Of a stretch of 64,000 bases of DNA, positions 15,959-24,440 are shown one piece after another. Numbering within the stretch: position 1 is the stretch's first letter; every line of letters starts with the position of its first letter. This stretch comes from Oceaniferula marina. Lineage in GTDB: Bacteria > Verrucomicrobiota > Verrucomicrobiia > Verrucomicrobiales > Akkermansiaceae. The stretch lies in assembly GCF_013391475.1 (NCBI RefSeq), contig NZ_JACBAZ010000004.1, positions 372,001 through 436,000 on the forward strand. The letters run 5' to 3'. Below the pieces are notes generated by a model. It worked only from the letters and a program-made list of their open reading frames with translations. It searched no databases and was not told the origin of the DNA. Both the position numbers and the translations under genes were made by a program.

Positions 15959-16573
15959 TCAAGAATCCTTTTTCTTTTCCTTCCACTCTTTGACCCCCTC
16001 GGTCAGGGCGGTCAAAAAGAGCAAAACGGCAGCAATGCTGATACAGCTGTCAGCGACATTGAAGGCTGGCCAGCGGTAGTTCACGACCGGCAGGAAAAAA
16101 TCCAGGAAATCAACGACGTACCCCTGCCCTAGCCGTTCCCAGAATCCCGCATCCTTGTATCCCTCGAGCCAGAACCCCTGCAGCAAACGATCTGTAAGAT
16201 TGCCGACAATTCCGGCCATCAACAAGGGAGCCGACCACTTGGACGGCCCGGTGAAGGCGCCTTTTTTCCAGAAATAAAGAATCACGAAAATCGCGACGAT
16301 CAAAACGAGTAAAAAGACGACAGGAGCCCAGGTCGTGCCATTACCAATCCCAAAGGCAACCCCTTGGTTATGGCGACGAACCAGATTGAAAAAGCCTTCA
16401 ATGACCGGCCGAGTATCCTCATACCCGTAGAGTTTTCCATCGATTTGAACCACGCTTGGCTCTTTAAAATTGAGGACAATCCACCATTTGGTGATTTGAT
16501 CCAGAATATAAAGCGGCAAGGTCACGACTAAAAGTAGCCGGATCATTGTCGCGTTGCCGAGAGCCGTGGTCAT
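15959..16573 (-). CDS. lspA: Lipoprotein signal peptidase (signal peptidase II)
   Basis: Inner-membrane aspartyl protease that cleaves prolipoproteins before the lipidated Cys. The 204-aa product has four hydrophobic segments, the N-terminal DQITKWWI and the two catalytic aspartates in GIVGNLTDR (about residue 128) and FNVADSCI (about 175). It lies 13 nt after ileS, a gene order common in many bacteria. A TTG at 16594 overlapping ileS is an alternative start. Several substrates lie in this window, including the thioredoxin-like, L,D-transpeptidase, amidase and DUF4349 lipoproteins. Confidence 0.95.
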   Translation of the reverse strand: MTTALGNATMIRLLLVVTLPLYILDQITKWWIVLNFKEPSVVQIDGKLYGYEDTRPVIEGFFNLVRRHNQGVAFGIGNGTTWAPVVFLLVLIVAIFVILYFWKKGAFTGPSKWSAPLLMAGIVGNLTDRLLQGFWLEGYKDAGFWERLGQGYVVDFLDFFLPVVNYRWPAFNVADSCISIAAVLLFLTALTEGVKEWKEKKKDS

Positions 16574-16586
16574 GGAGCCAATGGGA

Positions 16587-19301
16587 TTAAACAACCTCGC
16601 TGCACCGCTGACAAACCTCTGTCACCAGAGGTTCGTATCGACGGCAACGCGGGCACATGGCATGTCCGGTCGCCTTCGCCGTAGCTGAAACCTCTTCACC
16701 CTCAACCACATTGAGGTCGGCAAGAATAAAGAATTCAGTGACAAATTCGCGATCAGCCAACAGGTCGGAACATGGATGGCCCGCAGGCAGAGTCAAAGTA
16801 ACCTCGGCCTCATTGTTCTTATTAAAGAGCTTGGCCTGCACCTCTTTTTCAATGGCGGTCTGAATCACAGCACGGATCTCAAGCAGACTTCCCACTTGGG
16901 CAATGGCCTCACCAGGAGTAAAGGCCTCATCCACAATCGGGAAATCCTGCTCATGCACAGAGCCCTCATGACCCGCATGCTCCCAGGCTTCATCCGCAGT
17001 AAAGACCAGAATCGGAGCAACCAAACGGCAAATGGCGTCAAACACGCGGAACATCACTGTCTGTGCGGCCAAGCGGCGCACCGAATCCGGGGCATCACAG
17101 TACATCCGGTCCTTGGTGATATCAATGTAGAGCGCACTCAACTCGTGGGTGCAGAAATGGTTGATTTGGTTAAATACCTTACGGAATTGATAATGCTCAT
17201 AGGCGTCGCGGCACTCGGCAATCACCTCGTTCAAGCGCTCGAGCACCCAGCGGTCAAGCAGCGTCATATCCTGCTTCGCCACCGACTGACTAGCGGGGTC
17301 AAAACCATGGATATTACCGAGTAAAATCCGGAGCGTGTTCCGGAGTCGGCGGTATGGGTCCGTGACCTGTTTGAACAGCTTGTCAGAAAACGGAACCTCT
17401 GTTTGCCAGTCGACAGACGCGGCCCACAGACGTACGATATCCGATCCAAACTGATCGTAGTAATGCTTGGCATTGATCGGCTTACTGCCGGATTTTGAAA
17501 TTTTCTTACCCGAAGTATCGACGACGAACCCGTGAGTCATCACTGCTTTATATGGTGCCTTACCTCGTGCTGCCACGCTCAGCATCAGAGAGCTCTGGAA
17601 CCAGCCACGGTGCTGGTCGGTTGCCTCAATGATCAAATCCGCGGGAGCCGACAGTTCCGGATGGCGGTCGAGCACCGCAACATGGCTCGAGCCGGAATCG
17701 ATCCAGACATCGAGGGTATCACGGCACTTGCGACATCCTTCCGGCAGACCGAGTCGCTTGGCCAGTTCGGCATCGTCGAGCTCGAACCAGATATTGGTGC
17801 CCTCGGTTTCCACCAAGTCGGCCACCTTGCCAATCAATGCGGGGTCGATGATCGCCTCTCCATCGGCAGAGAAAAACACAGGAAGAGGAACCCCCCAGGT
17901 GCGCTGACGGCTGATGCACCAATCCGGGCGAGCCTCGACGGTTCCGTAAATTCGATTGCGGCCCCACTTGGGAAGCCAGTTCACTTGATCGATCTCTTCA
18001 AGCGCCTTGCCTCGAATGTCTTTGAGCGAAATAAAGAACTGCTCAACAGCCCGGAAAATGATCGGCGTTTTGGAACGCCAGCAATGTGGATACTGGTGGG
18101 CGTAGAGTTCTTGTCCAAGCAGGTTCCCCCCTTCGGCCAACATCTCGGTGATCCGCTTGTTGGTCTTAAACACATGCTGACCAACGAGCTCCTCGAGCCC
18201 GCATTCGTCGGTAAACTTTCCGTCATCATCCACAGGCGACAACAGACCGAGGTCATTCTGCTGGCCGGCGACGTAGTCATCCGCACCATGTCCGGGGGCA
18301 ATATGCACCGCCCCGGTTCCGGTGTCCGTAGTGACAAAATTGGCCAAAATCAACTTGGACGTTCTTGGCAGAAATGGATGCTGGGCATGCAAGCCCTCGA
18401 GCACACCTCCTTTGAATTCGCTGCTGGCAGCCTTCAAAACAAAACCCGTCTTCTCAGCAAAATCACTCAGCAAGTCCTTGGCTAAAACCAACTTAACGGT
18501 CCGGCCATCCTCGTGGCCAAACTCTCCACAGACATAATCAAAGCGTTCGTGCACAGCAATACCGAGGTTGGCAGGCAAGGTCCATGGCGTTGTGGTCCAG
18601 ATCACCATCGAGGCATCGCTCAAATCGCCCTCGGCATCGGCCAGAGGAAAACGAACATAAGCGGCCATGCTCTTTTTATCCATGTATTCCACTTCGGCCT
18701 CGGCCAGAGCCGTACCGGCACCGTAACTCCAGAGCACCGGCTTGCGACTTTGGTAAACGGCGTCCATTTCAACAAGCTTACCAAAAGTCCGGATAATGTC
18801 GGATTCGTATCCGGGGTCAAGCGTCAGATATGGGTTCTCCCAATCACCAAACACACCGAGACGACGAAAACTTTCGCGCTGAATATCAATAAACCCTTTG
18901 GCAAATTCGGTACACCGACGGCGGACCTCGGCAGGCTCCTCATCCCGGGCATCCTGCATCACCTTGTATTCAATCGGCAATCCGTGACAATCCCAACCGG
19001 GAACATAGGGTGTTTCATACCCGGCCATGGTCTTGGATTTTAAAACCAAGTCCTTGAGCACCTTATTCAAGGCGGTTCCCATGTGAACGTCACCATTCGC
19101 AAAAGGCGGGCCGTCATGCAAAATAAACCGCGGAGCGCCCTGATCTTTCCGGCGCTTTTGAATGCGCTGGTACAAGTCCTGGTCAGCCCAGGACTGGAGA
19201 CGCTTGGGTTCATTTTCTACCAGATTCCCCCGCATCGGAAAACTGGTTTCCGGCAGGCTCAGGGTGTCTTTGTAATTCGGCTTGGTTTGATCCGCACTCA
19301 T
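16587..19301 (-). CDS. ileS: Isoleucyl-tRNA synthetase
   Basis: Class I aminoacyl-tRNA synthetase, 904 aa. It has the HIGH-type motif PPFANGDVHMG near residue 67, the editing (CP1) domain with TTTPWTLPANLG, the KMSKS-type motif KISKSG and the C-terminal zinc-binding segment CPRCRR...CQRC, as in the bacterial eubacterial-type enzyme. It lies between the thioredoxin-like gene (89 bp upstream) and lspA. No T-box leader is visible. Confidence 0.97.
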   Translation of the reverse strand: MSADQTKPNYKDTLSLPETSFPMRGNLVENEPKRLQSWADQDLYQRIQKRRKDQGAPRFILHDGPPFANGDVHMGTALNKVLKDLVLKSKTMAGYETPYVPGWDCHGLPIEYKVMQDARDEEPAEVRRRCTEFAKGFIDIQRESFRRLGVFGDWENPYLTLDPGYESDIIRTFGKLVEMDAVYQSRKPVLWSYGAGTALAEAEVEYMDKKSMAAYVRFPLADAEGDLSDASMVIWTTTPWTLPANLGIAVHERFDYVCGEFGHEDGRTVKLVLAKDLLSDFAEKTGFVLKAASSEFKGGVLEGLHAQHPFLPRTSKLILANFVTTDTGTGAVHIAPGHGADDYVAGQQNDLGLLSPVDDDGKFTDECGLEELVGQHVFKTNKRITEMLAEGGNLLGQELYAHQYPHCWRSKTPIIFRAVEQFFISLKDIRGKALEEIDQVNWLPKWGRNRIYGTVEARPDWCISRQRTWGVPLPVFFSADGEAIIDPALIGKVADLVETEGTNIWFELDDAELAKRLGLPEGCRKCRDTLDVWIDSGSSHVAVLDRHPELSAPADLIIEATDQHRGWFQSSLMLSVAARGKAPYKAVMTHGFVVDTSGKKISKSGSKPINAKHYYDQFGSDIVRLWAASVDWQTEVPFSDKLFKQVTDPYRRLRNTLRILLGNIHGFDPASQSVAKQDMTLLDRWVLERLNEVIAECRDAYEHYQFRKVFNQINHFCTHELSALYIDITKDRMYCDAPDSVRRLAAQTVMFRVFDAICRLVAPILVFTADEAWEHAGHEGSVHEQDFPIVDEAFTPGEAIAQVGSLLEIRAVIQTAIEKEVQAKLFNKNNEAEVTLTLPAGHPCSDLLADREFVTEFFILADLNVVEGEEVSATAKATGHAMCPRCRRYEPLVTEVCQRCSEVV

Positions 19302-19390: not shown

Positions 19391-20008
19391 CTACTCGGCA
19401 GTCACTCCAGGAGGCAGCCAATCTTTGGGCATGGGCTGGACCGTCGGCTCTTTCGGGGCATCCCCCTCTTTCCCCTCCTTATCCTTGGACGAGGTGGATG
19501 CAGCACTCGCCGTCAACGAGCCCGCATACTTATCAATTTTTTGCTGCATGATTTTCTCGGGGTAGGCACCAGCAAACTGATCCACCAACATCCCGCCACT
19601 ATAGAGTCTGAACGCAGGCACCCCTCTGACATTTTCTTTCGCCGCCCAGGTCCTGTGCTTGTTGGCATCGACCTTCACGATCCGAACCTTCTCGACATTC
19701 TTATCAGCCAAACGCTCCAACACGGGAGCGATCTTACGACAAGGTGGTCATGTATCGGTATAAAACTCAACAATCACCAGACGCCGCTCACTCATAATGA
19801 TGCGTTTCCCCTCCTTCTCATCAACGGCCACCACCTCCTTGACCAAAGCATCACCAGCACCTTCTGATGAATCATCCTGCATCTCTTTAAGCTTGTTGGA
19901 TGCCGATTCGAGCATCTCCTTGGCCTTCTGACAGGAAACCATTCCTCCTCCTGCAAGGAACACCACCACCAAACTCCCAATCGACTTTCTCGCCAAGGCC
20001 CAAGACAT
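19391..20008 (-). CDS. Thioredoxin-like lipoprotein, probable selenoprotein (UPPC active site)
   Basis: Reading on the minus strand from ATG 20008, the frame is open except for one TGA at 19750-19748 and ends at TAG 19391; the product is 205 aa if the TGA is decoded. Residues 1-23 form a lipoprotein signal (lipobox-like MVSC). The thioredoxin domain begins at VIVEFYTDT, then TGA (residue 87), PPC (Cys90), RKIAPVLERLADKN, VRIVKVDANKH, VRGVPAFRLYSGG with the cis-Pro, and DQFAGAYPEKI. The TGA thus replaces the N-terminal Cys of CxxC, the position where selenocysteine is found in UxxC redox proteins. There is no other disruption before or after. A SECIS-like hairpin follows at the right distance. 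The alternative is a Cys-to-stop point mutation in a recent pseudogene. It is probably periplasmic and membrane-tethered, acting in thiol-disulphide or peroxide chemistry, upstream of ileS-lspA. Confidence 0.75.
19713..19750 (-). promoter_or_regulatory. In-frame UGA with bacterial SECIS-like hairpin
   Basis: In the mRNA, UGA (19750-19748) is followed by 17 nt and then CGCUCC (19730-19725), loop CGUGUU (19724-19719), GGAGCG (19718-19713): a perfect 6-bp, GC-rich stem. The apical loop starts 24 nt after the UGA and has G as its second base. Published bacterial SECIS models ask for a small stem-loop with a G in the first two loop positions, about 16-37 nt after UGA, and this fits. The hairpin lies within coding sequence for IAPVLER, so it is built by codon choice. 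Confidence 0.7.
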
Positions 20009-20101
20009 GAGAACGACTATGTCTGGAATCAGCAACGCATCAAGACGATAACTCCAACATTTCGCCTGTATCTTTTCAAAAAAAGCATTAGCATCCGTGC
20101 C

Positions 20102-20950
20102 GTGAACGTCGGAATCATTGCCAACCCCCACAAAAAGGGAGCCCGCACCACCCTCATCAACCTGTGTGAAGCACTCGAGAAAAAAAAGATCACCTGGTCA
20201 CTCGAAACCGAAACCGCCGATATCATCGGTTCGCCGGATGGGGTAGACGCCCGCACCTTCGGAGACAGCTGTGATGTCGTTGCCGTGCTCGGAGGTGACG
20301 GCACCATGCTCAACGCCTCAAGTAAAATAGGATCCGTCGATATCCCGGTCGCCGGTATCAATATCGGCACCTTGGGGTTCCTGACAACCTGCACCGACAC
20401 CGAGCTTGACCTCTTTGCCGATGCTGTGGCCAGCGGCAACTACCAACTGATCAAACGGCTCCAACTCCGGGCCACCATTACCTCGAACGATGGTTCACGC
20501 CAATACTTCAGAGCTCTCAACGAGATCACCCTCACCCGGGGGCATACCGGACGTCTGGTCTCCCTCGACGCCTGGGTGGATGGAGAACTCCTGAACCACT
20601 ACCGGGCAGACGGCCTGATTGTATCGACAGCCACAGGATCCACCGCCTACTCGCTCTCGGCCGGGGGCCCACTGATTGCGCCCAAAGCAGACGTCTATGT
20701 CATCACCCCGATTTGCCCGCACAGCCTGAGTAACCGCTCTCTGGTTGTCTCCGACAGCTCGGTGGTCGAGCTTGCCCCGGCATCCGACTCCAGTTGCCCG
20801 ATGCTCTTTACTGTCGACGGAAGGGATGTGGTTGACATCAAACAAGGCAGTCGAATCACCGTCGAACAAGCTGGCCACGCTCTACCTCTGCTGAGGATTG
20901 CCGACCGCACCTTTTTCAGCACCCTACGCCAAAAACTAGGCTGGGGGTAA
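20102..20950 (+). CDS. nadK: NAD kinase
   Basis: Phosphorylates NAD to NADP. The 282-aa product has the GGDGTML motif (about 64-70), the NE/D motif in ALNEITLTRG, TGSTAYSLSAGGP and the C-terminal DGR motif. It begins with GTG at 20102 (V/M-NVGIIANPHKKG), which matches the usual N-terminus of the family, and no ATG is better placed. It is divergent from the thioredoxin-like gene; the two starts are 93 bp apart and must share the promoter region. Confidence 0.95.
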   Translation: MNVGIIANPHKKGARTTLINLCEALEKKKITWSLETETADIIGSPDGVDARTFGDSCDVVAVLGGDGTMLNASSKIGSVDIPVAGINIGTLGFLTTCTDTELDLFADAVASGNYQLIKRLQLRATITSNDGSRQYFRALNEITLTRGHTGRLVSLDAWVDGELLNHYRADGLIVSTATGSTAYSLSAGGPLIAPKADVYVITPICPHSLSNRSLVVSDSSVVELAPASDSSCPMLFTVDGRDVVDIKQGSRITVEQAGHALPLLRIADRTFFSTLRQKLGWG

Positions 20951-23174: not shown

Positions 23175-23320
23175 GGCGAAGCAAAACTAGTCACAATCCA
23201 CAAGCCGTGTGAAGTCTTCTCTCGAATCCACAGAAAGTATAAACCCTCAGCTCGAAGCTTCCTCACTATTCGGGAATAACGACTTCCCTTTTCATCAATT
23301 CCCGCTATCACTCGGCGCGT

Positions 23321-24440
23321 ATGAGTGAACACAATATCGCTGACCTCCTGGCGCTGGACACCGGGGCTCTGAAGAGCCGCCTGTCCGAACTCAGGAGGTA
23401 CCTTTGACGTCCCAAACCTGGAACAACAGCTCACCGAGCTCGACCACGCCATGGCTGACCCGGAATTCTGGAACGATCAGGAAAACGCCCAGCGCACGGT
23501 CAGTCAATCCAATCTGATCAAAGGCAAACTCAACCCCTTTCTCGAACTGGAACAGCGGGCAGCGAACCTCGACGAAGTCATCGAACTCGCCAAAGAAGCC
23601 GACGATCTGGATTTCGCCAAAGAAGCCAATGACGACTACAAGGACATCATCTCTGAACTCGATAAGTTCGAGCTGATCACCCTGCTCGACAAACCCACCG
23701 ACGTCACCAATGCCTACCTCACGATTCAGGCCGGAGCTGGAGGCACCGAGGCCTGCGATTGGGCGGAAATGCTGCTGCGCATGTACATCCGATGGGCTGA
23801 GGACAAGGGCTTCACGGTCACCAAACTCGACTACCAGGATGGAGACGGCGCAGGATGCCGTACGGCTTCCCTGAAAATCGACGGCCCCTACGCATACGGC
23901 TATCTCAAAAACGAGCGAGGCGTCCACCGCCTGGTCCGTATTTCCCCCTTCGACGCCGCAGGCAAACGACACACCTCGTTTTCTGCAATCGACGTCACTC
24001 CTGAAATTTCCACCGATATCAACATCGAAATTCCGGAATCCGACGTCGAAATCACCACCGCTCGTTCAGGCGGCGCAGGTGGACAAAACGTCAACAAGGT
24101 GGAAACCGCCGTGATCATCAAACACAAACCCACCGGTATTCTGATCCGCTCCACCCAAGAACGGTCACAGCTCCGCAACCGTGAAAACGCATGGGCCATC
24201 CTGCGAGCCAAGCTCTATCAAATTGAGGAGGATAAACAGAAAGCCGAAGCGGATCGCGAATATTCAGCCAAGGGAGAAATCGGCTGGGGATCCCAGATCC
24301 GCTCCTATGTCTTCCAACCATACCAAATGGTTAAGGACCTACGAACAGGCGAAGAAACCGGCAACATCTCCGCCGTCATGGACGGACGCCTCGACCCGTT
24401 TATCGAGGCCAAACTCAAGGGTAAATCCAGAGAAAAATAA
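23321..24440 (+). CDS. prfB: Peptide chain release factor 2 with programmed +1 frameshift
   Basis: Release factor recognising UGA and UAA. It is made from join(23321..23404, 23406..24440): 28 codons from ATG 23321 end at CTT TGA, and a +1 slip on CTT-T gives ...[13 protein letters not shown] and continues for 344 codons, 372 aa in total. Signatures are [12 protein letters not shown] (the SPF tripeptide that reads UGA) and [14 protein letters not shown] (GGQ, peptide release). Without the frameshift a caller would wrongly start at the internal ATG 23451. Low RF2 stalls the ribosome at UGA and favours the shift, so the protein regulates its own synthesis, as known in E. coli. Confidence 0.95.
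23393..23408 (+). promoter_or_regulatory. RF2 programmed frameshift site
   Basis: AGGAGG (23393-23398), 3 nt, then CTTTGAC (23402-23408). This has the same geometry as the E. coli prfB site (SD-like hexamer, UAU, CUU UGA C), with UAC as the spacer codon. The SD-like hexamer pairs with 16S rRNA and pulls the ribosome forward at the UGA. Confidence 0.95.

Follow-up and report, generated by a model that had tools for sequence, protein, structure and literature searches.

An in-frame TGA almost certainly read as selenocysteine in a thioredoxin-domain, predicted lipoprotein gene of Oceaniferula marina

Does the TGA that interrupts a thioredoxin-like gene of Oceaniferula marina terminate translation, betray a broken gene, or encode selenocysteine (Sec)? 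The gene lies in a 64-kb stretch of DNA, called the window hereafter. Reading positions 20008-19391 on the minus strand confirmed the preliminary description of a 206-codon frame (205 residues followed by TAG) whose sole internal TGA, at 19750-19748, falls at the first Cys of the thioredoxin CxxC motif. Mechanical ORF calling yields two pieces, 19748-20131 and 19391-19723, as had been predicted for standard pipelines. It had also been stated that TGA is an ordinary stop in this DNA, and indeed it ends 11 of the 36 mechanical, non-overlapping ORFs of at least 250 amino acids in the window, and lspA, recO and gmk are each terminated by it. A reassigned TGA was rejected because the triplet is a normal stop in the window. 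We conclude from the evidence below that the interrupted gene is almost certainly a single selenoprotein gene in which TGA is read as Sec. Its features and neighbors are listed in Table 1.

Table 1. Coordinates of the selenothioredoxin gene, its predicted elements and its neighbors in the window
Feature	Positions	Strand	Basis or remarks
Selenothioredoxin gene, predicted lipoprotein	19391..20008	-	205 residues, Sec at 87, stop TAG; PF00085 E=1.3e-22
Sec codon 87 (TGA in frame), first residue of the UPPC site	19748..19750	-	12 genomes have TGA here
Predicted signal peptide with a lipobox (MVSC) whose last residue is Cys26	19931..20008	-	Assigned by eye; Ser-Cys invariant in a 12-row alignment
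Thioredoxin domain, residues 59-159; UPPC at 87-90, Pro131 at the cis-Pro place	19532..19834	-	Pfam, alignment, predicted structure
bSECIS-like hairpin, stem CGCTCC/GGAGCG, loop CGTGTT	19713..19730	-	Starts 17 nt after TGA, loop 23 nt after
Conserved C-terminal tail PMPKDWLPPGV, residues 192-202	19403..19435	-	Alignments; similar tails in other lipoproteins
nadK, divergent neighbor, conserved in most of the genus	20102..20950	+	
ileS, downstream neighbor	16587..19301	-	
lspA (lipoprotein signal peptidase), further downstream	15959..16594	-	

The read-through product matches the Pfam profile Thioredoxin over its cut-off (Table 1), and this match, together with a fold that has a CxxC-type site and a proline at the cis-Pro place, assigns it to PF00085. 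The NCBIfam thioredoxin equivalog, TIGR01068, stayed below its curated cut-off (71.5 vs 96.8 bits), and none of the 17 NCBIfam models with matches listed reached its own cut-off on the selenothioredoxin. AlphaFold2, run with 12 sequences, predicted the thioredoxin domain confidently (block mean pLDDT of 93-95 for residues 61-160) and the N terminus, linker and tail with low confidence (overall mean pLDDT 72.9, pTM 0.55). A Foldseek search with the predicted model returned thioredoxins as the best PDB matches (E=2e-11). In the N-terminal region, the invariant Ser25-Cys26 of the lipobox assigned by eye suggests that the protein is a lipoprotein, exported and lipidated.

The frame 3′ of the TGA is under purifying selection. 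In 12 comparisons, pN ranged from 0.08 to 0.35 and pS from 0.25 to 0.86, with pN the lower every time; dS was often saturated in these comparisons. The fold, the cis-Pro and the C-terminal tail are retained as well, so that the random decay envisaged as a refutation was not seen.

Strong full-length matches in 58 genomes, including that of O. marina itself, came from a single genus plus a small number of relatives. Of the 14 genomes of the genus, 13 carry the gene, with TGA at the column in 11, Cys (TGT) in G013 and Ser (TCT) in G004; two of the TGA copies run off the end of their contigs (G001 and G002). G026, which belongs to a different genus, also has TGA, and all five further relatives read (G019, G022, G024, G025 and G031) have Cys. 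In a family search of 260 genomes, the best 56 rows listed (E of 1.5e-30 or better) comprised 11 with one TGA, 44 with no stop and 1 with TAA. The 11 TGA rows among these matches came from 10 members of the genus and G026; the partial gene of G001, the twelfth TGA carrier, scored lower. Among the best 30 rows of this search the column held TGA in 11, Cys in 18 and Ser in 1, and the 18 rows from outside the genus had Cys in 17 cases and TGA in G026. The alignment of homologues proposed in the preliminary description thus returned Cys (once Ser) or TGA at this column, and the gene has what marks a bacterial selenoprotein, namely, an in-frame UGA at a catalytic Cys position for which Cys homologues exist. 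The residues before the active site also differ between the forms: DTU in the Sec forms vs WC (mostly DWC) in 17 of 17 distant Cys forms, Thr standing for Trp in the Sec branch.

A tree was built without the partial sequences of G001 and G002; 2 of its 14 forks are well supported and most are weak. In it, G013 groups with G026 (95/90), and this pair lies inside a 12-row group (91/95) that consists of the 10 TGA rows used, G013 and G004. A Sec-to-Cys change in G013 is likely.

The gene adjoins ileS-lspA, as originally noted. In the 12 further loci of the genus that were read, nadK is divergent upstream in 11 and ileS is downstream in 10; the contig edge is reached before ileS in G001 and G002, and G004 has ileS, with no nadK found in the short remainder of its contig. 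Neither nadK nor ileS was found in the 3.5-kb stretches read in G026, G019 and G025. Elsewhere in the window, prfB (RF2; 23299-24440, plus strand) has an AGGAGG followed by CTTTGAC, where the zero frame ends in LRRYL-stop and the +1 frame continues with DVPNLEQQL, a motif that we take to be the classic autoregulatory +1 frameshift.

A hairpin 17 nt 3′ of the TGA, with a 6-bp stem and a 6-nt loop whose second base is G, had been said to fit published rules. The bSECIS model, in the portion of PMC13188914 consulted, has a loop of 3-9 nt, a stem of 4-16 bp, a G in the first two loop bases, a UGA-to-loop distance of 16-37 nt and an MFE of at most -7.5. The hairpin, with stem halves at 19730-19725 and 19718-19713 and the loop at 19724-19719, agrees with all of these rules (6 nt, 6 bp, G second, 23 nt and -9.0 kcal/mol for the isolated hairpin), and the description held up. 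Chance level was gauged on 600 TGA triplets sampled out of the 2488 in the window (both strands, all frames): 4 passed the rules with at least six Watson-Crick pairs, and 19 passed when G-U pairs were allowed. The hairpin of codon 87, entered in this test with its spacing off by one base, passed as well. An Rfam gathering search of the 64-kb window gave no match, which we did not count against a SECIS.

The hairpin is conserved among the TGA genes. In 11 distinct TGA rows (G005 was left out, as its stretch is identical to that of G010), 95.5% of the cells are paired and the covariation score is 0.212 vs 0.117 in shuffled alignments, values reached by 0 of 500 shuffles in each case; versions of the hairpin slid along the alignment scored 0.158 or less. 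Five covariation measures were used, two of which were not beyond the shuffles: both-side changes occur in two stem pairs, with as many in 74 of 500 shuffles (not beyond chance), and further pair types in the stem were not in excess (398 of 500 shuffles reached the observed level). RNAalifold recovered the same helix unprompted. At the codon level, excess synonymous identity in the hairpin codons, +7 to +11, was 0.52 vs 0.04 in the rest, ranking first of 78 five-codon windows, and all 11 rows share the codons CCC and GTG. Folded as isolated 20-nt hairpins, six of eight TGA orthologues stayed within the MFE rule, G007 (-5.2) and G008 (-2.6 kcal/mol) being the two that missed it; in 50-nt folds of the 12 TGA rows, the MFE structures of G007 and G009 lacked the hairpin and that of G008 had it broken. 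The Cys species G013 has an intact stem and a loop, CACGCT, without an early G, and no hairpin forms in G004, the species with Ser. These two states are what a relaxed need for a SECIS would give.

All four components of the Sec machinery named as a check in the preliminary description, selA, selB, selC and selD, are present in the O. marina genome, which is 97% complete. SelB (306.6 bits), SelA (514.6 bits) and SelD (375.3 bits) are each over their cut-offs, tRNA-Sec is over the gathering score (51.7 bits), and ARAGORN calls a tRNA-SeC with anticodon tca. SelD of this genome contains one in-frame TGA, and in nine of nine genomes read, this one (G000) included, the SelD TGA is followed by a short hairpin with a GTT loop. 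In this genome selD (L121; G000:C1:756478-757398) is itself a selenoprotein gene. Among the 12 TGA carriers, many of whose genomes are incomplete, and with stricter filters in one of the searches, SelB was over its cut-off in 11, SelA in 9, SelD in 11 and tRNA-Sec in 8.

Species without Sec at this site showed both situations. G013 keeps SelA, SelB, SelD and tRNA-Sec, G004 keeps the three proteins with tRNA-Sec not over the cut-off, and G022 and G024 have SelA, SelB and SelD yet Cys at the column. Since the machinery is kept in such Cys and Ser species, Sec can be lost at the site with no need for loss of the machinery. In G019, G025 and G031, which have Cys, SelA was not found and neither SelB nor SelD passed the cut-off. 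RF01852 was nevertheless weakly over its cut-off in G019 and G031, so that this score by itself is no proof of a tRNA-Sec. The Sec interpretation of the TGA at codon 87 is very well supported.

The C-terminal tail is a further conserved element. It is of the PMPKxWLPPGV type throughout the genus, and in all 17 Cys relatives read the match ends in WLPP or WMPP, the G that comes next being missing from two of them. Scanning the DNA with a pattern for this tail gave 16 places in 12 of the 14 genomes of the genus, and the reversed control pattern gave 1 place. Eleven of the 16 lie in the thioredoxin gene (in G002, a fragment of it); the other five belong to a second lipoprotein in G008, G012 and G000 and to thioredoxin-like paralogues in G007 and G009. 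The tail may serve in docking or localization.

In G008, the second, non-thioredoxin lipoprotein is encoded between the thioredoxin gene and ileS and ends in WLPQGVTRE. The same slot holds a second lipoprotein with a diverged tail, WMPLGLSEE, in G013, and the second lipoprotein stands alone there in G012, with no thioredoxin gene; a homologue in G000, at C1:450697, ends in WLPPGVTQG. The four are mutually homologous (27-38% identity, E about 1e-23 or better), and the one tested had no significant Pfam match. Their loci (L226, about 1300-2000; L147, 4480-5345; L022, 2000-2825; and L228, G000:C1:450697) show a similar lipobox. The idea that G012 had swapped its thioredoxin domain for another was dropped because the second lipoprotein is a separate neighboring gene in G008 and G013.

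The thioredoxin-like paralogues of G007 and G009 keep the tail without the Cys pair, that of G009 retaining the second Cys. Four paralogue loci have lost the pair (L138, which keeps the second Cys, L134, L136 and L132), and the WLPPG-type tail is kept in L138, L134 and L132 and diverged in L136. A further thioredoxin-like paralogue, L131 (G026:C45:96000-97600), has a TGA a few codons past the CxxC place, as in a decayed gene or another case of recoding.

These observations bear on a more specific proposal, that the selenoprotein has a dedicated role in an envelope complex with the neighboring helical lipoprotein of similar tail, the tail serving to dock or localize it. The second lipoprotein in the slot of G008 and G013, alone in G012 and with a homologue in G000, its similar tails, and the tail kept by paralogues that lack the Cys pair all fit such a complex. 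However, in the window the thioredoxin gene has no partner gene next to it, the gap between the thioredoxin gene and ileS is too small for it in most loci read, the partner tested had no significant Pfam match, and its helical nature is a guess from sequence; we regard the complex as possible but doubtful. The same tentative standing goes to the wider picture of a lineage-specific envelope selenium redox module, in which the selenothioredoxin, anchored by its lipid, would have a WLPPGV-type docking tail in common with a helical lipoprotein as its partner, and the Cys species G013, recently reverted, would still have the former SECIS stem minus the loop G.

Explanations without Sec fare far worse. 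Bacteria show low-level UGA read-through, and the codon might be read by a near-cognate tRNA (for example as Trp) or serve in regulated termination. Against this, the column is Cys in G013 and in all but one of the out-of-genus rows among the best 30, the genome has the Sec machinery and the gene a SECIS-like hairpin, and TGA terminates long ORFs in the window; we consider such a reading very improbable. A pseudogene or assembly error, in which a Cys codon was mutated to or misread as TGA, would look just like this in a single genome and would account for the two pieces from ORF calling. Yet the equivalent codon is TGA in 12 genomes, which makes a sequencing error, named at the outset as a possible refutation, very unlikely, and the selection 3′ of the TGA and the conservation of the hairpin codons beyond coding need leave a broken or misread gene next to no likelihood. 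Finally, the gene might make two functional proteins, one a short lipoprotein that stops at the TGA and the other encoded separately from GTG 19723. Both exist mechanically as ORFs, but they would split one thioredoxin domain between its catalytic residues, and the protein is continuous in G013 and the Cys relatives; this reading is hardly credible.

A selenoprotein made by SelB recoding, with a lipid-anchored redox role in the envelope, is therefore the best explanation, and taken as one claim we hold it to be highly probable. The computation supports the frame, the TGA at the catalytic position, the Sec machinery, the conserved SECIS-like hairpin, the purifying selection and the thioredoxin fold. 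SelB on the hairpin would deliver Sec-tRNA(UCA) to the UGA at codon 87, and this recoding would yield the thioredoxin at full length, its active site being UPPC. The signal peptide and its lipobox would export the protein, Cys26 would be lipidated and the signal cleaved by LspA, which would position the thioredoxin domain on the outer face of a membrane. There, the pair of the selenolate and Cys90 could reduce or isomerize disulfides, or related oxidized residues, of envelope proteins, so that we infer a role as an envelope reductant or isomerase. A genome-encoded DsbD-family membrane protein is a plausible electron source: DsbD_TM is over its cut-off in 12 of the 14 genomes of the genus, G000 included, and its link to the selenothioredoxin is putative, as are the membrane side and the substrates.

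The gene adds a well-supported selenoprotein to the Akkermansiaceae, in a place where standard ORF calling cuts it in two; the bacteria concerned are for the most part uncultured. As Sec, Cys and Ser versions occur within one genus, with hairpins that are kept, altered in the loop or absent, the gain and loss of Sec can be tested directly here. The recurring C-terminal tail points to an envelope lipoprotein group named by none of the family models searched.

The preliminary description knew of no characterized example from this phylum. Searches of open-licence literature, judged by titles and opening lines, agree: they yielded no paper on a lipoprotein selenothioredoxin or on an Akkermansiaceae selenothioredoxin. 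PMC12013277 gave no hit, and PMC5029168 had nothing on this phylum in the passages searched; PMC4807772, in the part available, treats planctomycete selenoproteins. UxxC had also been called a recurrent selenoprotein active site, in line with the tables available from PMC9312934 and PMC13188914, which place Sec-containing Trx (PF00085, UxxC) ahead of a "predicted" group. Trx or Trx-like UxxC proteins are likewise reported from ocean metagenomes in the extracts available of PMC2398784 and PMC1088965.

Like the Sec-containing Trx of those tables (PMC9312934, PMC13188914), as far as their available portions describe it, the present protein belongs to PF00085, has Sec first in UxxC and combines an in-frame UGA with a downstream SECIS. 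It differs in its predicted lipoprotein nature, its N-terminal linker, its conserved tail (WLPPGV) and a score below the TIGR01068 cut-off. The "Trx-like 1" protein of ocean metagenomes (COG0526; PMC2398784) resembles it as a thioredoxin-like UxxC protein predicted in silico; the comparison is by description, and the available extract does not mention a lipoprotein architecture. The Cys-form lipoprotein thioredoxins of the family (for example G019, G025, G133 and G137) share the thioredoxin domain and the WLPP-type C-terminal tail but have Cys at the column. UxxC thioredoxins are thus already known as a kind, and what is new here is an Akkermansiaceae branch of predicted lipoproteins whose C-terminal tail is conserved.
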